Assembly: GCA_013388635.1 (NCBI GenBank)
Contig: JACAEX010000049.1
Location: 1-53,690, forward strand
Origin: Syntrophaceae bacterium
Lineage (GTDB): Bacteria; Desulfobacterota; BSN033; UBA1163
Direction: 5' to 3'
DNA: 53,690 nt
A model generated the notes under the pieces. It was not told where the DNA came from. It made no database searches and saw only the letters and a program-made list of their open reading frames with translations. This document shows positions 20,662-28,574 of the stretch, one piece after another; within the stretch, counting starts at the first letter, position 1, and each line of letters starts with the position of its first letter. The translations under genes and the position numbers were made by a program.

Positions 20662-21666
20662 CTAAGTGGCCTTTCTCATCGCCTCGATTAACTCCTTCCG
20701 GGTCGCTGTGGCTGTTCCCATCTTTCCGACCACGACACCTGCCGCATAATTTGCTATTTCTGCGGCCTCCTTAACGCTAACGCTGGGCCCTGTTCCCAAA
20801 CCAAGGGCCAGCGTCCCGATCACGGTATCGCCTGCTCCTGTTACGTCAAAAACTTCCACCCTCTCTGTCGGAACATAGACCGGCTTTCGGTGTTTCTCAA
20901 AGATGGCCATTCCCTCTTCCCCGCGCGTAATGACCAGGGCCTTGCATTGCAGCTCCTTCAATAACTTACTTCCTATCTTCTCTATGGACGACTGATCCAC
21001 AATAGGAACTCTTGATGCTTCACTCGCCTCCTTGGTGTTGGGGGTGACCACGGTCGCCCCTTTGTAGAACTTGTAATTCCTCAGCTTCGGGTCCACTAAG
21101 ACAGGCTTCCTCGACTTCTTCGCTTTTCGAATGATCGCCCGAATCAATCTGCCGGTCAAAACACCCTTCCCATAGTCCGAAATCACGATCCCATCGAAAT
21201 CCTCTATTCTGCCCATGATAAAATCTGTGAAATCTCGGAGGAGATGGGGTTTGGGATGATCAATCGTTTCACGGTCAATTCGGACCACCTGCTGCTGGTT
21301 GGCAAAAATTCTTGTCTTGACCGTGGTCTGCCTCCCCTTCTCTGTGAAGATCCCTTCCGTTTGAATTCCAATCTCGTCAAGTTTTTCCAGGAGCCTTTGC
21401 CCCATCTCATCATCGCCCACAACACCGCAGAGCAAAACCTCTCCTCCCAGCGAATGAATGTTGTTGGCTACATTGGCAGCCCCTCCAAGGCTCATCGTCT
21501 CAGACCTCTCGTTATTCTCCACCAAAACCACAGGCACCGGCGCCTCCGGCGATATCCGGGAGACCCTCCCCCAGACGAATCGATCGATCATGATATCGCC
21601 GACGACCATGATCTTTACCTTTGAAAACCCTTCTAAGATTCTTCCGAGTCTATTCTTTCTCTCCAC
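20662..21666 (-). CDS. rfaE1: D-glycero-beta-D-manno-heptose-7-phosphate kinase
   Basis: This PfkB-family kinase phosphorylates heptose 7-phosphate at C1 for LPS inner-core heptose. It matches the N-terminal half of E. coli HldE: MVVGDIMIDRFVWGRVSRISPEAPVPVV, LGGAANVANN and the catalytic DVTGAGDT motif near residues 274-281. The adenylyltransferase half is absent, so rfaE2 should lie elsewhere. The start is uncertain: GTG 21666 gives 334 residues beginning MERKNRLGRILEGF, while the longest ORF starts at TTG 21726 and overlaps the upstream epimerase gene by 32 bases. It closes the minus-strand operon at the bidirectional terminator. Confidence 0.9.
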   Translation of the reverse strand: MERKNRLGRILEGFSKVKIMVVGDIMIDRFVWGRVSRISPEAPVPVVLVENNERSETMSLGGAANVANNIHSLGGEVLLCGVVGDDEMGQRLLEKLDEIGIQTEGIFTEKGRQTTVKTRIFANQQQVVRIDRETIDHPKPHLLRDFTDFIMGRIEDFDGIVISDYGKGVLTGRLIRAIIRKAKKSRKPVLVDPKLRNYKFYKGATVVTPNTKEASEASRVPIVDQSSIEKIGSKLLKELQCKALVITRGEEGMAIFEKHRKPVYVPTERVEVFDVTGAGDTVIGTLALGLGTGPSVSVKEAAEIANYAAGVVVGKMGTATATRKELIEAMRKAT

Positions 21667-21694
21667 GGCTTCGCTTACCCTTCCCGAGAAACTC

Positions 21695-22642
21695 CTACTT
21701 CCTCCACGACCTCTTAAAGTACTCAACCGTCTTTTCCAAGCCTGCCTCTATCCCAACCCGCGGTTCATAATGCAATACTTGTTTTCCCTTCTCGATATCG
21801 GCCAGAGAGTGTCTCACATCTCCCTTCCGCGGCTCCTGATGGGTGGCAGAAACCCTCGAACCCGTGATGCCTTTGAGAATCTCAAGTAGCTGGTTGAGCG
21901 AAGTTCTTCTTCCGCAGGCGATATTAATCGCCTCTCCATTCAGATGGTTTGCTGACATAGCTAAAAGATTTGCCTGTACTACGTTCTCAATATAGGTAAA
22001 ATCGCGCGACTGCTCTCCATCCCCAAAGATGACAGGTGACCTCCCCTCAAGCAGTGCATCAATAAAACGCGGGATCACCGCAGAATAGATCGATTTTGGA
22101 TCCTGTCTCGGACCGAAGATGTTGAAATATCTCAACGAGATCGTCTCGAGTCCGTACAGACGAAAAAAGAGTTTGCAGTACTGTTCACCAACATATTTCT
22201 GAAGGGCATAGGGAGAAAGGGGATTCGGAGGCATCTCCTCTCTCTTCGGAAGCGTCGGGGTATCTCCATAAACAGAAGAGGACGAGGCGTAGATCAATCG
22301 CTTCACGCCCGCGTCCCTTGCTGCAAGGAGGATATTTAAAGTCCCTACGACATTGATCGAGTTTGAGGTTAAAGGATCTTCCACCGACCGCTGAACCGAT
22401 GGGAGTGCAGCCTGGTGAAAGACATATTCTACCCCCTTCATTGATTTCTGACAGACGGCGAGGTCACGGATATCTCCTTCAACAATTTCGAGAGATGAGT
22501 AGTTGTGGTCGAAACGGAGGTTCTCTTTTTTCCCGGTTAAAAAATTATCGAGGACCCGAACCCGATGCCCTTGCTTGAGCAAAGCCTCGGTCAAGTTTGA
22601 TCCAATGAACCCCGCCCCCCCTGTCACCAAAACATTCGACAT
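21695..22642 (-). CDS. NAD-dependent sugar-nucleotide epimerase (WbpP/GalE-like SDR)
   Basis: The 315-residue extended SDR has the Rossmann motif VTGGAGFIGSNL, the catalytic SSSVYG and YALQK (YxxxK) and a C-terminal substrate domain with RYFNIFGPRQDP and FGDGEQSRDFTYIENV. It resembles UDP-N-acetylglucosamine 4-epimerases of the WbpP/TviC/Gne type more than plain GalE (family impression). It likely supplies a UDP-hexosamine or hexuronic acid for surface glycans. It starts three bases after the stop of a HEPN gene and is followed by the heptose kinase, so it is probably cotranscribed with both. Confidence 0.85.
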   Translation of the reverse strand: MSNVLVTGGAGFIGSNLTEALLKQGHRVRVLDNFLTGKKENLRFDHNYSSLEIVEGDIRDLAVCQKSMKGVEYVFHQAALPSVQRSVEDPLTSNSINVVGTLNILLAARDAGVKRLIYASSSSVYGDTPTLPKREEMPPNPLSPYALQKYVGEQYCKLFFRLYGLETISLRYFNIFGPRQDPKSIYSAVIPRFIDALLEGRSPVIFGDGEQSRDFTYIENVVQANLLAMSANHLNGEAINIACGRRTSLNQLLEILKGITGSRVSATHQEPRKGDVRHSLADIEKGKQVLHYEPRVGIEAGLEKTVEYFKRSWRK

Positions 22643-22645
22643 ATC

Positions 22646-23050
22646 TTATATCGAAATTTTTAATATTTTTACTACGTTATCAAAAACAAATTTAGCATCA
22701 GAGTAAGCTTCTCCGGCTTCCTCTCTCTTAAATATCTTTTCTCCATAGAAAGAAGGACCTCTATCTTCGGCGAGCCGAGCAGAAATCCGGACAACCCTCT
22801 TCATCACCTCTTCGTCAAACTCTCCAATCTTTTTCTTCACCATCTCTTCGAATATCTTTCCTACGTCGTGAATCTTAGGGTATTCCACCCCAAGAATTTT
22901 TAATGCTCCTTTTAAAGCAAGCTCCACGACCTCTTGAGCACGTCTTACCACCATGTTGTCATCATTACCCTTCCAGGCCTCTTGAAGGTCTCTCTCCATG
23001 ATGCGCTTAGCCGTCAGGAGAAGGTCTTTTCCGCTTTCAAAGTTATTCAT
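22646..23050 (-). CDS. HEPN domain protein (pair D)
   Basis: The 134-residue helical protein has the core VVRRAQEVVELALKGALKIL then PKIHDVG, and a second conserved patch LAEDRGPSFYGEKIF. This matches the HEPN family common in archaea and thermophiles that pairs with MNT nucleotidyltransferases. It lacks the RX4HXY ribonuclease motif of HepT-type toxins. Its ATG overlaps the stop of the nucleotidyltransferase gene as ATGA, so the two are translationally coupled. It is paralogous to the HEPN at 25460-25894. The function is unknown; substrate-binding or regulatory roles are possible. Confidence 0.85.
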   Translation of the reverse strand: MNNFESGKDLLLTAKRIMERDLQEAWKGNDDNMVVRRAQEVVELALKGALKILGVEYPKIHDVGKIFEEMVKKKIGEFDEEVMKRVVRISARLAEDRGPSFYGEKIFKREEAGEAYSDAKFVFDNVVKILKISI

Positions 23051-23559
23051 AGCGAAAATATTTCTCCAACCTTAAGGTCTGGTTTAAGATCCCAAAACCA
23101 GGATCCATCTTCCAAAGGAACCTTCCTGGCCCCCAATTCTTGAAGTCGTGCTCTTATCTGGTTAAGTCTATCCGCGAAGAAACCATTCTTATCGTAGAGG
23201 ATCTTTGCATCATCAATCATGTCCAGGAATACGTATCTGTTCTCCTCGGCCTCTTTTCGAGAGAAAAGAAGGAAACTGAAATAAGGCTCCTGGCCAATTT
23301 CCTCCTTTATCCGCCTATACTCCTTTGATTTTCTCAGCCTGTCTTCAACATCCAAAACCTGATCCAGACGTCGATGGTAATTTTGATGAGGATCCTCAAG
23401 AATCAAAAGGAGATCGACATCACTTAATGCATCGCCTTTCCCCCTCGCAATAGACCCATATAAGACCAGAGAAACTAAATCTTCATGAAATTCCTCTTTC
23501 AACAAAGCGAGGAATGTCTCAAGAACTTTCTTATAAAATCTAAATCCGATTCTTCCCAT
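23047..23559 (-). CDS. MNT-type nucleotidyltransferase (pair D)
   Basis: The 170-residue protein has the Pol-beta fold signature LYGSIARGKGDALSDVDLLL with G35, S36, D47 and D49 (GSX10DXD). A C-terminal tail reads SWFWDLKPDLKVGEIFSL; related tails occur in the nucleotidyltransferases at 25891 and, weaker, 24022. Such enzymes pair with HEPN proteins; MntA of the HepT/MntA system AMPylates its HEPN partner, but this subfamily is not shown to. ATG 23559 was used; a GTG two codons upstream is possible. The HEPN partner overlaps by four bases. Confidence 0.85.
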   Translation of the reverse strand: MGRIGFRFYKKVLETFLALLKEEFHEDLVSLVLYGSIARGKGDALSDVDLLLILEDPHQNYHRRLDQVLDVEDRLRKSKEYRRIKEEIGQEPYFSFLLFSRKEAEENRYVFLDMIDDAKILYDKNGFFADRLNQIRARLQELGARKVPLEDGSWFWDLKPDLKVGEIFSL

Positions 23560-23578
23560 ACTCACACTCTCTCTAATT

Positions 23579-24025
23579 TTATATATAACGACAAAAATTT
23601 TCTAAGGTCATATAGGCGTTTCTTGCTCGTTTGTATAGATCCTCGGCCACCTCTTTTGTACATATGTCCACAGCAGCGTAATGGACACCTCCTCTTGCTT
23701 CCCCATAAGTGGCCAGCCCATGCCAGGGCCCTGCGAAATCGGCATCATCACTCAGGCGATACAGGGCCTTTATCAGCCCAGCGGGTAGGGATTTTTCCAG
23801 ATCCGCCTTTTTATCCTCGATGATCTTTATCAACTGTTTCCCTGGACTATGGGTCCATTCGGGTTCACCAAAATAGGAAATAATTGCCTTGCACGCACTC
23901 TCGATACAGAGCTGCGAATTCTGAGTAGCTGAACGGAAGCTGTTTTCGGAGAATGCCCTTTGAGCTTCTTTAAAATAGTCCTGAGCGTCCCTTTTCCAAC
24001 GCTGTAACTCAGTTTTATTATTCAT
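23579..24025 (-). CDS. HEPN domain protein (pair C)
   Basis: The 148-residue helical protein has the HEPN-like pattern YFKEAQRAFSENSFRSAT then SQLCIESACKAIISYFG, and a C-terminal YGEARGGVHY followed by TKEVAEDLYKRARNAY. The ARGGVHY stretch is an RX3H, one residue short of the canonical RX4-6H ribonuclease motif, so activity is uncertain. It is less similar to the other HEPN proteins here, so it is not a recent local duplicate. Its ATG overlaps the upstream nucleotidyltransferase stop as ATGA. Confidence 0.75.
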   Translation of the reverse strand: MNNKTELQRWKRDAQDYFKEAQRAFSENSFRSATQNSQLCIESACKAIISYFGEPEWTHSPGKQLIKIIEDKKADLEKSLPAGLIKALYRLSDDADFAGPWHGLATYGEARGGVHYAAVDICTKEVAEDLYKRARNAYMTLENFCRYI

Positions 24026-24486
24026 TCGCTCACGCTTACTTCAAAGGTCTCTCCTATCCTGATATCCTTTTTGACCCAATATCGATGTCCGTGAATCTCC
24101 TCTTCGACCAGACCTGAATTTTTTGCAGTTTGAACTATCTTTTCAAAAAGTTCTTCTACTTTCCCGTTCCGGTCGTAAATCAGCTTACCTTCGGATGCAA
24201 GCCTTAGAACATACCATGAGGAGACCTCTTTGAGTGACCTCAGAGAATAGACCAGTACAGTGATATCTCTTTGGAAGACCTTTAATTCTTCTCTCAGTAT
24301 CCTGTTCCATTGAAGCCATACCTCCCTCTCTGAGAAGCTATCTGGAATCACAATAAAAATATCAATGTCACTTTTTGAAGAAAAGTCCCCCCTTGCCAAC
24401 GACCCGCACACACCAATGGCTTCGATATCTCTAAAGGATAATTTCGAATCAAGAATGGTCTTCTTAACCTCTTCCAGTAGAGTCAT
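24022..24486 (-). CDS. MNT-type nucleotidyltransferase (pair C)
   Basis: The 154-residue protein contains GVCGSLARGDFSSKSDIDIFIV with G28, S29, D40 and D42, a complete GSX10DXD nucleotidyltransferase motif. The C-terminus, HRYWVKKDIRIGETFEV, is a diverged version of the W-x-W-DLKPD tail seen in pairs B and D. It lies 114 bases downstream of the cysteine protease gene, with nothing recognised in that gap, and overlaps its HEPN partner by four bases. Confidence 0.85.
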   Translation of the reverse strand: MTLLEEVKKTILDSKLSFRDIEAIGVCGSLARGDFSSKSDIDIFIVIPDSFSEREVWLQWNRILREELKVFQRDITVLVYSLRSLKEVSSWYVLRLASEGKLIYDRNGKVEELFEKIVQTAKNSGLVEEEIHGHRYWVKKDIRIGETFEVSVSE

Positions 24487-24600
24487 GGCTGCTGAAACGT
24501 CACCTCACTTCTTCTCATATTCTTATAGCAGATTTTTAAACCAACATAAATTGACGGGCGCTCCCAAAAGTTCATTTTCACAGTGGGCCTTGGAGCTTCC

Positions 24601-25476
24601 TTACTCCCGAAACTGGCCGCTATCGATCCACTCCTTCTTCAATACCGACCAGAAGTCCTCTGCCAGTCCCCTTAGGATATAATCATAAGGCAACCAGCCA
24701 TATCCTCCTTCTCCCCATCCCCTTCCCCATGAATTTCTGATCAGAAGCGCTCCGCTGCTCTCCGATTTTCCATATTTATTCTTGATCTTGATCTTATCAT
24801 CATAGCCCACTGCCAAAACTGCATGACCTCCCTCGATCCTCTCCTTCGGGGATGGAAATGGAATCCTTCCGCTCTGCTCCGCCTGCTCAATAGAGCTATA
24901 GACCGTAAATCCAAACATAGCAGGATGACCTTTTGCTAAATAGGACTTCAGCTTTTCCAATATCTTTTCCCCCTTCGTTCCGGGAGGATCGTGTCTGAAA
25001 TATTTAATCGTCTGGTAATTCTGAGCAAAAGCATAACAAAAAGCAGGAGGCTCCTTATCAAATGCCTCTTTCTCTTCACTGTAAGGCCAGTACTCCTCAG
25101 GCGGCACTCCAAAAAGCACCATGGCTCCCATAGTCGTTCTCAGGTAAGCCCCTGTATCTCCTTTCATCTTCATAAGATTTCGGGTCACCTTGTAGAGAAA
25201 GAGCCTTGAGGCATCAATATGTCTTCCAAAAGATTTTCTCTCATAATACTCAATCATCCCCACGCCTGCATGAGCCGTGCAGGAACCCAGACCTCCCTGA
25301 TCCTCAACCGGTGAGCACCACTGACGAAGATCTACTGAAGAGGGAATGCCTTTTTCCTTCGGGGCCTTCATAGTTCCAAAGGTTGATCTAACCTCTTCAG
25401 TCTCCTCTGTATAATCCCTGAAATCAGGATAATCTGGAATCCACCCCATCCCCCGTCTTCTATCTTCTCCGTCCAT
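24601..25476 (-). CDS. papain-like (C1 family) cysteine protease
   Basis: The 291-residue protein has the full papain catalytic set: oxyanion Gln60 and nucleophile Cys66 (EDQGGLGSC), His218 (GGHAVLAVGYDD) and Asn248 (IRNSWGRGWGEGGYGW). The N-terminal GWIPDYPDFRDY and VDLRQWCSPVEDQ are typical of bacterial cytoplasmic C1 peptidases. There is no signal peptide, so it probably acts inside the cell. I used ATG 25476, preceded by AAAGGGGAAAGGAA; it overlaps the HEPN gene at 25460 by 17 bases, giving likely translational coupling. The natural substrate is unknown. It is flanked on both sides by nucleotidyltransferase/HEPN pairs. Confidence 0.88.
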   Translation of the reverse strand: MDGEDRRRGMGWIPDYPDFRDYTEETEEVRSTFGTMKAPKEKGIPSSVDLRQWCSPVEDQGGLGSCTAHAGVGMIEYYERKSFGRHIDASRLFLYKVTRNLMKMKGDTGAYLRTTMGAMVLFGVPPEEYWPYSEEKEAFDKEPPAFCYAFAQNYQTIKYFRHDPPGTKGEKILEKLKSYLAKGHPAMFGFTVYSSIEQAEQSGRIPFPSPKERIEGGHAVLAVGYDDKIKIKNKYGKSESSGALLIRNSWGRGWGEGGYGWLPYDYILRGLAEDFWSVLKKEWIDSGQFRE

Positions 25477-25894
25477 TTCCTTTCCCCTTTTGCACAACTT
25501 CTGTAGCTGTAGCAACGACAAACTTGGCCCCTTCTATGGCCTCCATAGCATCCTCCTGTTTATATTCGTCTGTAGGTATAAAGTCTATATCGCCATAGAA
25601 GGCAAGTTCCCTCTCTCTTCTCAACTCCTTCGAAATCTTGGCAAGCCTCATAATATCTTCAGAAGAGACATCTCTAAATCTCCCCTGATACTCAATAAGG
25701 AGGGGGCCAACATCATGGTATTTCGGGGGTTCGATCCCCACATACCGAAGCATCCCCCTAAAGCCGAGTTCAACAATCTCTTGCGCCTCTCTCACCACAT
25801 CCGAGTAAGCCCCTTTTTTGAGAAGTAGATCAAGGACGTCCAGCCTGTCTGTGCGCTTCTTAAGATAACTTTTGGCAAGATCGCTGTTTGTCAT
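25460..25894 (-). CDS. HEPN domain protein (pair B)
   Basis: The 144-residue protein contains VVREAQEIVELGFRGMLRYVG then PPKYHDVG, and RRERELAFYGDIDFIPTDEY, followed by an AMEAIEGAKFV helix. It is clearly paralogous to the HEPN at 22646 and, like it, lacks the RX4HXY motif. Its ATG overlaps the nucleotidyltransferase stop as ATGA, and its own last 17 bases overlap the protease start. The C-terminus QKGKGNGRRR is basic and is encoded by the sequence that doubles as the protease ribosome-binding site. Confidence 0.85.
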   Translation of the reverse strand: MTNSDLAKSYLKKRTDRLDVLDLLLKKGAYSDVVREAQEIVELGFRGMLRYVGIEPPKYHDVGPLLIEYQGRFRDVSSEDIMRLAKISKELRRERELAFYGDIDFIPTDEYKQEDAMEAIEGAKFVVATATEVVQKGKGNGRRR

Positions 25895-26385
25895 AATTCG
25901 ATCAAATCCCCGAACTTATAGTCTGGCTTGAGATCCCAATACCATGCATTACCCTTCCACACCCTCTTCGCGCCCAGTTTCCCTAATTTTTCTCTCAACC
26001 TTTCAAGAATTCCTTGAAAAAAGCCACCTTTGTCAAAAAGGATTTTTGCATCCTCTACCATATCGAGAAAGAGCGGGCTCCCCTTCTGGGCTTCTTCAGG
26101 ACTTTTTATAAGTGCGGAGATATAGGTATTGATTCCCTCCTTTTGTTGAAGTGATTTCAAAAATGGTCCCACCCTCTCTTCCACAGAGTTAAATTCTCTT
26201 ATCCTCCTCATCCTCCCCTGCGGAAGGCCCTCCGCAATGATCAAGATGTCAAGGTCAGACTCGAAGCTTTGCGTCTCCCTTGCCGCCGATCCAAAAACAA
26301 CGACAGAGACCAGCCTCTCTCCATAGAAAACTTCTATCTCTGACAGAAGTAATTCTTCAAGCTCTCTAAACTTTTCTTTGAGCAT
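25891..26385 (-). CDS. MNT-type nucleotidyltransferase (pair B)
   Basis: The 164-residue protein has VVFGSAARETQSFESDLDIL with G32, S33, D44 and D46 (GSX10DXD). A middle segment LFLDMVEDAKILFDKGGFF and a tail WYWDLKPDYKFGDLIEL are shared with the pair D enzyme, so the two are paralogues. I recall the same tail in archaeal nucleotidyltransferases. ATG 26385 was used; TTG 26394 is the longest start and neither has a clear ribosome-binding site. It lies 78 bases downstream of the HepT-like gene. Confidence 0.85.
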   Translation of the reverse strand: MLKEKFRELEELLLSEIEVFYGERLVSVVVFGSAARETQSFESDLDILIIAEGLPQGRMRRIREFNSVEERVGPFLKSLQQKEGINTYISALIKSPEEAQKGSPLFLDMVEDAKILFDKGGFFQGILERLREKLGKLGAKRVWKGNAWYWDLKPDYKFGDLIEL

Positions 26386-26463
26386 TGTCGCCAACCGATC
26401 TACAAACTATAACAAAAACCTTAAGACCCTCTAAAATGCGTAATATAGAATCGTTGATCAAAG

Positions 26464-26883
26464 TTACTTAAGATGCTGAATCTCTGAAATGAACTTATCA
26501 ATTATTTTTAGACTTTCCTTTGTCTCTCTATATAATCTCCGATCATCCGTTTTCCAGTAGCCATGGATCAGCTGATGCCTAAGCTTGGTTAAGGGGATTA
26601 ATCGATTGGCAGTCTCTTCAGAAAGAAATCCTTTCTCCCTCATCCTTATTATTGCCTCCATATATTCCTCAACGACGATGTGGCTTTTTTTGGCCAATAC
26701 ATGGCGACAAATATTACAAATGGCCTCAATAAGGACAATCAATGTATATTTCATCGCCCGGATCATCATGGAATCCCGAATAAATTTATCACTATCCACC
26801 GATGTAATTTCTGTCAGAATACTCTCTGCTTCTCTGATTTCAGCTTCGTACTTCAAAATCTTCTCTTTATCCAGATTCGACAT
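26464..26883 (-). CDS. hepT: HepT-like HEPN toxin (pair A)
   Basis: HepT toxins are HEPN ribonucleases kept in check by AMPylation from MntA. The 139-residue protein carries the hallmark RX4HXY as LRHQLIHGYW with R102, H107 and Y109, and the preceding helices fit the DUF86/HepT fold. I chose ATG 26883, preceded by GGAG; it overlaps the mntA-like stop by 17 bases, the usual coupled arrangement. This is the only HEPN in the island with the canonical ribonuclease motif. Assigned to the family by motif and partner. Confidence 0.85.
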   Translation of the reverse strand: MSNLDKEKILKYEAEIREAESILTEITSVDSDKFIRDSMMIRAMKYTLIVLIEAICNICRHVLAKKSHIVVEEYMEAIIRMREKGFLSEETANRLIPLTKLRHQLIHGYWKTDDRRLYRETKESLKIIDKFISEIQHLK

Positions 26884-27340
26884 ATGTCTCTCCGACCAAT
26901 TCTCCAATCGATTCAATCCTTAAGTGATAATTATCCATAGCCTTTTCCCCAACTTCTTCAATAAAATTTGTTAATGCCTCCTCATCCTCTTTAAGAATAA
27001 GATATCTCCCTTTCAATAATTTGCTAACAAAAAAAATCGGCGCGTGATTCAGAAGGACCGCTTCAACAGGAACAATGTTTAAGCCTTTTGAAGATAGAAG
27101 AGAGTAAGCTTCTGCTTCAATGTTGGACTCCAATATATAGGTATATGTGTTCAGCTGATCTGGTTCGATATAAAGACCTATATCAATATCCCCATATTTT
27201 CCTTGAATGTCCGGGTTAACGAACGATCCATAAAGAAGAGCGAATTTGATCTCTTTATGTCTGTCCAAAAGCTCTTTAACGACCTCAACAATCTTCTCTT
27301 TCTGCTGGTCGTTTATCTCTCTTAAAGGCTTTATGGCCAT
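26867..27340 (-). CDS. mntA: MntA-like antitoxin adenylyltransferase (pair A)
   Basis: MntA-type enzymes AMPylate a tyrosine of HepT and neutralise it. The 157-residue protein has LLYGSFVNPDIQGKYGDIDIGLYI with G38, S39, D51 and D53; the loop between GS and DXD is 11 residues instead of the usual 10. ATG 27340 was used; GTG 27346 is possible, and both follow GAGGGAAGG. It is the first gene of the island and has a promoter-like sequence upstream. The remaining C-terminal part is not specifically recognised. Confidence 0.82.
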   Translation of the reverse strand: MAIKPLREINDQQKEKIVEVVKELLDRHKEIKFALLYGSFVNPDIQGKYGDIDIGLYIEPDQLNTYTYILESNIEAEAYSLLSSKGLNIVPVEAVLLNHAPIFFVSKLLKGRYLILKEDEEALTNFIEEVGEKAMDNYHLRIESIGELVGETYVESG

Positions 27341-27373
27341 TCCCACACCTTCCCTCTAAAATAATTTTAGACA

Positions 27374-27496: not shown

Positions 27497-27856
27497 CTAA
27501 GGCGTGCTTTTCTTAAGCTCCTTAAACTCCAGTTCAAGAAGGGCATACCGTTGGGCCATTTCTTTATTTTGGCTGGTGAGTTTGGAAATGACCACCGAAA
27601 AATGGAAAACGATCAGAAGGAGAAAGAAAAAGGCAACGAGGACAATGGCCGACAGATAGAAAATCCCTGTTACCCTGCTGAAAAACTGAGAGAGAAAGAA
27701 TTCGGGCCACAGGGTTAATAAGAAAATCGCTATGCCCGTAAAAAGCCAGAGGATGGAATACTCTTCTCGAAGCCTGCCTTTCCGGATCAATTCGAAGGTG
27801 AGAAAAAACAGAATCACGCTCAATGCTCCGATGACCAGCTGAACCTTAAGCAACAT
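27497..27856 (-). CDS. DUF2304 membrane protein
   Basis: The 119-residue protein has three membrane segments (about 2-22, 34-52, 65-90) and a C-terminal coiled-coil-like tail. The pattern ELIRKGRLREEYSILWLFTGI is diagnostic of DUF2304, a family that accompanies GT2 polyprenyl-phosphate glycosyltransferases. It probably helps the adjacent transferase act at the membrane (inference). Its ATG has an excellent AGGAGG site and overlaps the GT2 stop by 11 bases. Confidence 0.85.
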   Translation of the reverse strand: MLLKVQLVIGALSVILFFLTFELIRKGRLREEYSILWLFTGIAIFLLTLWPEFFLSQFFSRVTGIFYLSAIVLVAFFFLLLIVFHFSVVISKLTSQNKEMAQRYALLELEFKELKKSTP

Positions 27857-28574
27857 CTTTTCCTCCTGTGACGAAACGGGGTTTTTTAAAGCAATCCACC
27901 AAAATTGCCAGAAGGACTTTGATCATATAGTAGATCGATCGGACTCTGGTGATAGAGGACTCTCCGGCATAACGTTTGCTCATGCCAATTGGAACTTCAG
28001 CCATTTTCAGTCCATACTGGTGAAGCAGGACCAATACCTCAGGCTCCGGGTAATCCTGGGGATAATCGAACGAAAATAATTGAATCGCCTTTCGATTCGC
28101 CGCTCTGAACCCGGAGGTAGGATCTGTGATCTTCTGTCCAACGATCCACGAGATCACTCTTGAGAAAATGGAAATGCCAATCCTTCTCATCCTTGAAGAT
28201 TTGAATTCCGAATCACCGATGAAACGCGAGCCGATCACCATATCCACTTCTCTCTCTTCTAATGCATTAAGGAGTTTAGGGATCTCTTTGGGATCATGTT
28301 GACCATCCCCATCCACCTGAATGGCAACCTCATAACCCTTCTGAAAGGCATATTTATAACCGGCCTGCATCGCCCCTCCAATGCCTAAATTAAAAGGAAG
28401 ATCCAAAACAAGGGCTCCATTCTCTCTTGCAATATCGGACGTCCGATCCCTGGACCCATCATTCACCACCAAGACATCCGCTCGTGGAAGATGATTCTTA
28501 ACCCCTTGAACCACCTCTCTTATCGCCCCTTCTTCGTTATAAGCTGGAATGATCACCAAAACTCTTTCATTCAT
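27846..28574 (-). CDS. GT2 glycosyltransferase, dolichyl/polyprenyl-phosphate sugar synthase type
   Basis: The 242-residue protein has the GT-A start VLVIIPAYNEEGAIREVV, VVNDGSRDRT and the metal-binding QVDGDGQHDP, followed by GSRFIGDSEF, the pattern of DPM1-like enzymes that load one sugar onto a polyprenyl phosphate. It has no C-terminal membrane domain, and the overlapping DUF2304 gene may compensate. The donor sugar cannot be read from the sequence. Confidence 0.88.
   Translation of the reverse strand: MNERVLVIIPAYNEEGAIREVVQGVKNHLPRADVLVVNDGSRDRTSDIARENGALVLDLPFNLGIGGAMQAGYKYAFQKGYEVAIQVDGDGQHDPKEIPKLLNALEEREVDMVIGSRFIGDSEFKSSRMRRIGISIFSRVISWIVGQKITDPTSGFRAANRKAIQLFSFDYPQDYPEPEVLVLLHQYGLKMAEVPIGMSKRYAGESSITRVRSIYYMIKVLLAILVDCFKKPRFVTGGKDVA

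Follow-up and report, generated by a model that had tools for sequence, protein, structure and literature searches.

The window analysed here is a stretch of 53,690 nucleotides from a Syntrophaceae bacterium (contig JACAEX010000049.1 of assembly GCA_013388635.1). On its minus strand, it holds an array of nine genes in which four pairs of nucleotidyltransferase (NT) and HEPN genes are stacked around a C1 cysteine protease gene. All nine open reading frames are intact and follow each other from 5' to 3' in the order NT1, HepT1, NT2, HEPN2, C1, NT3, HEPN3, NT4 and HEPN4:

NT1, 26867-27346, minus strand: MntA-like minimal nucleotidyltransferase (MNT); Pfam Polbeta, E 3e-9
HepT1, 26464-26883, minus strand: HEPN protein resembling RNase toxins; Pfam HepT-like, E 2e-20
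NT2, 25891-26394, minus strand: Class II MNT with GSX10DXD; Pfam NTP_transf_2, E 4e-6
HEPN2, 25460-25894, minus strand: Class II HEPN (PF05168) without RX4-6H; Pfam E 7e-15
C1, 24601-25476, minus strand: xylellain-type C1A cysteine peptidase; Pfam Peptidase_C1, E 2e-16
NT3, 24022-24486, minus strand: Class II MNT with GSX10DXD; Pfam NTP_transf_2, E 6e-9
HEPN3, 23579-24025, minus strand: Class II HEPN (PF05168) without RX4-6H; Pfam E 4e-12
NT4, 23047-23565, minus strand: Class II MNT with GSX10DXD; Pfam E 1.8e-8
HEPN4, 22646-23050, minus strand: Class II HEPN (PF05168) without RX4-6H; Pfam E 1.2e-14

With the nearest ATG taken as the start, 17 nt are shared by NT1 and HepT1 as well as by HEPN2 and C1, and the overlap is 4 nt in NT2/HEPN2, NT3/HEPN3 and NT4/HEPN4. 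The remaining gaps amount to ~70-84 nt between HepT1 and NT2, depending on the start chosen, 114 nt between C1 and NT3 and 13 nt between HEPN3 and NT4. The preliminary description of this DNA had listed four NT/HEPN pairs and a C1 protease with overlaps of 4 or 17 nt, and this was confirmed by intact reading frames and by Pfam families well above chance.

Judged by its motifs, pair 1 is HepT/MntA-like (Class I, type VII), and pairs 2-4 are Class II, a division that the preliminary description did not make. The RX4HXY motif was restricted to HepT1, where it reads R102 HQLI H107 G Y109 (RHQLIHGY, residues 102-109). HepT1 scored 64.3 bits on the NCBIfam HepT model, above the cut-off of 60, and had a weak PDB match to the HEPN toxin 7ae9. 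In NT1, the spacing from GS to DxD is 11 residues (GSX11DXD) and not 10, and its NCBIfam MntA score was 32.8 bits with a cut-off of 60. HEPN2, HEPN3 and HEPN4 belong to PF05168 and lack RX4-6H, and GSX10DXD was read in NT2, NT3 and NT4; a PF05168 HEPN lacking RX4HXY next to such an MNT is the Class II arrangement. Within the HEPN2/HEPN4 subfamily (19 sequences), R35, Q38, E39, H60-D61, R95 and an FYG motif are conserved to 89-100%. The conservation of H60-D61 is consistent with the description of HEPN proteins of this sort as keeping a histidine elsewhere in the protein (PMC3710099). Biochemistry of Class II HEPN/MNT pairs is not reported in PMC7641770. NT4 is 38% identical to NT2 and HEPN4 37% identical to HEPN2, which makes them old paralogs; thus, the array is not the product of recent tandem duplication, and this origin of pairs 2 and 4 was ruled out. 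From the families, NT1 would be expected to AMPylate Y109 in the RX4HXY motif of HepT1 and so to hold the predicted RNase in check, and the Class II pairs may be similar MNT-controlled HEPN modules with putative toxin chemistry.

By sequence and structural model, the protease is a xylellain-type C1A peptidase with a papain fold and an intact Cys/His/Asn triad. Q60, C66, H218 and N248 are present and do not vary in 62 sequences. Xylellain (3ois) was the best sequence match (5.6e-43) and also the best Foldseek fold match (E 1.6e-25) of the AlphaFold2 model, which had a pLDDT of 90.9. Peptidases of this type are spread by horizontal transfer, tailed phages included (PMC10380794), and relatives of the protease were found on plasmids and on 35 viral contigs. 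It is predicted from its family to be a cytoplasmic cysteine peptidase that acts on a substrate of its own. The overlap of HEPN2 and C1 is, as far as their sequences tell, a local junction. The C-terminus of HEPN2 reaches into the protease gene and is several residues longer than in its orthologs, with the stop supplied by the first codons of the protease, and when C-termini were compared, this upstream sequence was present in no relative. This weakens the overlap as an argument for a joint role, for which it had been used in the preliminary description.

The site of the array could be followed in relatives by its flanking genes:

21695-22642, minus strand: NAD-dependent epimerase-like SDR, adjoining HEPN4 and forming one edge of the variable interval
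20662-21726, minus strand: PfkB-type kinase, syntenic with the SDR and XerC genes in relatives
27497-28574, minus strand: genes of a small membrane protein and a family-2 glycosyltransferase, which stand on the far side of the variable interval in six relatives

The SDR-PfkB-XerC block is conserved across the family. In all same-family genomes readable past the SDR gene (11 of 11), the array is absent and other cargo holds the site, and in 6 of these 11 the interval is closed by the glycosyltransferase and the small membrane protein, which we take to be DUF2304-like. The cargo consists of a 109-aa gene alone (G015), a galE-like gene (G010), genes read from their sequence as O-acyltransferase-type (G003, G004 and G005) or AbiEii with its partner (G008 and G007 by Pfam, G006 by near-identical sequence). 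As the array is absent from this site and other cargo including AbiEii is found there, it appears to be accessory cargo at a hotspot that also takes other toxin-antitoxin (TA) genes. Within the window, a search for repeats flanking the island returned only short, chance-like matches. As a side observation, a two-gene unit of a 109-aa protein without Pfam match and a DUF5674 gene adjoins the SDR gene in several relatives (L320:2540-3218, L309:2648-3326). On the other side, positions 28596-53654 form a large polysaccharide region that extends up to the contig end and, as read from sequence, encodes glycosyltransferases, a flippase, a polymerase, a UDP-sugar dehydrogenase, a heparinase-like protein and a polyprenyl glycosylphosphotransferase.

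The array is thus probably a TA island at an insertion hotspot that comprises four independent MNT-HEPN modules, with the protease as a passenger and not as a part of the TA machinery. The hotspot would lie at the edge of the polysaccharide region, between the SDR-PfkB-XerC block and the membrane-protein/glycosyltransferase pair. The four modules, one of them Class I HepT/MntA-like and three Class II, would have been collected there, and C1 would be a further horizontally moving gene that landed within the island and abuts HEPN2; mobility as the cause is what we infer from these patterns. Several TA pairs of different kinds stand together at a locus that lacks them in relatives, as is characteristic of a TA island. 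TA islands have been described, as have MNT-HEPN genes inserted into syntenic loci (PMC2701414) and clusters of multiple MNT/HEPN genes in crenarchaea (PMC3710099).

Several observations weigh against this reading. Co-expression of the genes is likely because of their tight packing on one strand and the 17-nt overlap of HEPN2 and C1. The array itself showed no mobility gene, no target-site duplication and no partial copy of C1, and no strain was found that carries only part of it, as would be expected from stepwise assembly. Moreover, the protease is not placed beside TA genes at random in its closest relatives: with the window excluded, four of six independent C1 loci have a PIN or HEPN toxin at a distance of up to 1 kb (p ~3e-6, assuming random placement and with few independent loci). 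The background for this count was 195 PIN and HEPN toxins in 26.9 Mb of seven C1-holding genomes, by unbiased Pfam counts, and the two loci without such a neighbour lie near a contig end. HEPN toxins themselves have a PIN gene within 1 kb in only 2 of 57 cases, more rarely than C1 (Fisher p 4e-4).

Together with cargo that is inserted elsewhere at the 3' end of the protease gene and leaves partial repeats of it, these neighbourhoods speak more for shared insertion sites than for joint biochemistry. Beyond the family, close C1 relatives are flanked by VapBC, Phd/ParE, HigBA-like and MNT genes, and AbrB is also among the partners. These partners are of mixed families, stand in either orientation and lie 42-712 bp away, which makes C1 unlikely to be an operon partner. 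TA turnover beside C1 can be seen in L054 and L055, from two Smithella genomes whose C1 proteins are 99% identical: the gap between galE and C1 is 490 bp in one and 1,498 bp in the other, where it contains a TA cluster of Phd, a Gp49-like toxin and an HI1420-like antitoxin. Location near polysaccharide genes alone was ruled out as the cause of the TA proximity, since none of 13 sugar-transferase matches had a PIN or HEPN gene within 1 kb. Three C1 loci (L032, L033 and L050) are near what are presumably exosortase/PEP-CTERM-like genes (PrsK-, PrsR- and PrsT-like).

A possible but doubtful explanation is that cargo, often TA modules, inserts repeatedly at the 3' end of the C1 gene; it would enter at the stop codon and bring along or duplicate the last 85-320 bp of the gene. 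It would be compatible with the insertion hotspot, as its mechanism, and C1-TA neighbourhoods, perhaps including the one in the window, would arise in this way. Its clearest case is L067:9953-12186, which differs from the empty site L073:11132-12176 by a 1,183-bp insertion at the C1 3' end; the insertion carries a methyltransferase-like gene and is flanked by a direct duplication of 95 bp of that end. In L049:546-5455, units of MNT, DUF2204 nucleotidyltransferase and MNT-HEPN genes come after an intact C1 gene, and three copies of the C1 3' end lie between them; these copies match the complete gene at 77-81% identity and reach to its stop codon. A DUF4258/DUF2283-like pair, as read from the sequence, and a Phd-like start also belong to this array. 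AbiEi-like and AbiEii genes stand exactly between an intact C1 and a partial 3'-end copy in L090:5066-6522, and the layout of L060 is the same. Further, nucleotide homology ends 0-28 bp from the C1 stop and continues upstream in four groups of loci (L078/L098/L103, L095/L099, L109/L112/L120 and L059/L061). However, at E 1e-6 no copy of the C1 3' end was detected in the window or the rest of its genome. Several TA-linked loci have their TA genes upstream of C1, and in L107/L115 and L062/L064 the breaks are at the C1 start instead. An integron-like attC was rejected, as the 3'-end repeats fold no better than shuffled DNA (z ~-1.6 to +0.9); the window's own C1 end had a folding z of -3.1 on one strand. 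No recombinase was seen, and independent events are few. Because of the missing copy in the window, the clades that break at the other end and the lack of a hairpin signal, 3'-end insertion was kept as a rival mechanism. It seems rather unlikely that the 3' end of xylellain-type protease genes is a repeated landing site for TA cassettes, with partial copies of this end left between the cassettes, and that the window is such a platform whose partial copies were lost.

It is improbable that the protease works with TA modules generally, for example by degrading antitoxins or toxins, and is kept near any TA type by selection. Apart from the toxin count in the six loci and the absence of such toxins near sugar-transferase matches, this is favoured by a TA density within 1 kb of C1 of 0.49 genes/kb in the 16 closest loci compared to 0.03 genes/kb in random regions. 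These densities are merely supportive, and the unbiased Pfam counts carry the claim, because the TA profiles were partly seeded from C1 neighbours and are therefore biased; short contigs also hide many flanks. A general TA role is contradicted by the variable orientation and spacing, usually without a shared operon, by partner families that have no common substrate and by the distant C1 homologs, most of which lack the association and for which the density of 0.02 genes/kb is not above background.

Recurrence of the protease next to NT/HEPN pairs was followed in a scan of ~85,000 genomes, which gave 398 C1 relatives; the best 80 loci were read, 79 after removal of one duplicate. An NT or HEPN gene lies within 1 kb of C1 in 2 of these 79 loci, namely L045, with two HepT/MntA-type pairs on the strand opposite to C1, and L049, with its MNT and MNT-HEPN units; in L087, an NT/HEPN pair is ~1.9 kb away. 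None of the 79 loci has an intact C1 within an NT/HEPN stack as the window does. Recurrence with NT/HEPN genes is thus rare, and the partners of C1 are mostly of other TA types. Close C1 orthologs (65-82%) occur in nine other genomes out of 60 searched from relatives and have varied neighbours; in Syntrophaceae, Aminicenantes, Nitrospirota and archaea as well as on plasmids and viral contigs, C1 homologs stand next to unrelated genes. By a subfamily profile, NT2/NT4 relatives are present in 25 of 395 genomes of the phylum, and among the neighbourhoods listed (~1.5 kb flanks), none outside the window's genome had C1 beside them. Genes closely homologous to NT2/HEPN2 or NT4/HEPN4 exist in the absence of C1, and so do stacked pairs, in L183 and L186. 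It is therefore very improbable that the NT/HEPN pairs and the protease form a dedicated multi-part defence system in which the protease is the effector or degrades HEPN or NT proteins, an idea raised in the preliminary description. It is favoured by the position of C1 inside the stack, by the shared strand, by the 17-nt overlap with HEPN2 and by the MNT genes adjoining C1 in L049. Against it stand the rarity of NT/HEPN neighbours, NT2/HEPN2-type pairs that live without the protease in about two dozen genomes, and a PADLOC search of defence families with no match for the protease and only loose nucleotidyltransferase matches.

The proposed new multi-gene system is hence replaced by a checkable picture in which several TA classes are piled up at one chromosomal site, and the Class II pairs are natural test cases. 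It was unexpected that TA genes are linked to one protease clade, with insertions in which the end of the C1 gene is used again; if true, the insertion link would show concretely how small TA cassettes can spread when no recombinase is visible.

Compared to known systems, the array resembles TA islands (PMC2701414) and the crenarchaeal clusters of multiple MNT-HEPN genes (PMC3710099) in its close TA pairs of different subfamilies that are mobile relative to synteny; it differs in that the stack contains a peptidase gene. AbiEi/AbiEii type IV TA systems are the cargo of this chromosomal interval in G006, G007 and G008, but their toxin mechanism is unrelated, and they show only that the interval accepts TA cargo. 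The protease is similar to the xylellain-type short bacterial C1A peptidases (3ois; PMC10380794) in its length of ~290 aa, its conserved N-terminal GWxPDxxDxRD segment, the triad and the best sequence and fold match, whereas it is only ~34% identical to xylellain, and its clade tends to adjoin TA genes. Pair 1 is like type VII HepT/MntA (PMC7641770) with the MNT gene first, an overlapping HepT-like gene, RX4HXY and a HepT score above the cut-off, and differs by GSX11DXD instead of GSX10DXD and an NT1 score under the MntA cut-off. Pairs 2-4 agree with Class II HEPN/MNT (PF05168/PF01909, PMC7641770; HEPN-T of PMC3710099) in the lack of RX4-6H, GSX10DXD, the MNT gene in first position and the 4-nt overlap, and the HEPN2/HEPN4 subfamily additionally in a conserved His elsewhere and a conserved Tyr; here, however, three such pairs are stacked at one locus beside a Class I pair.

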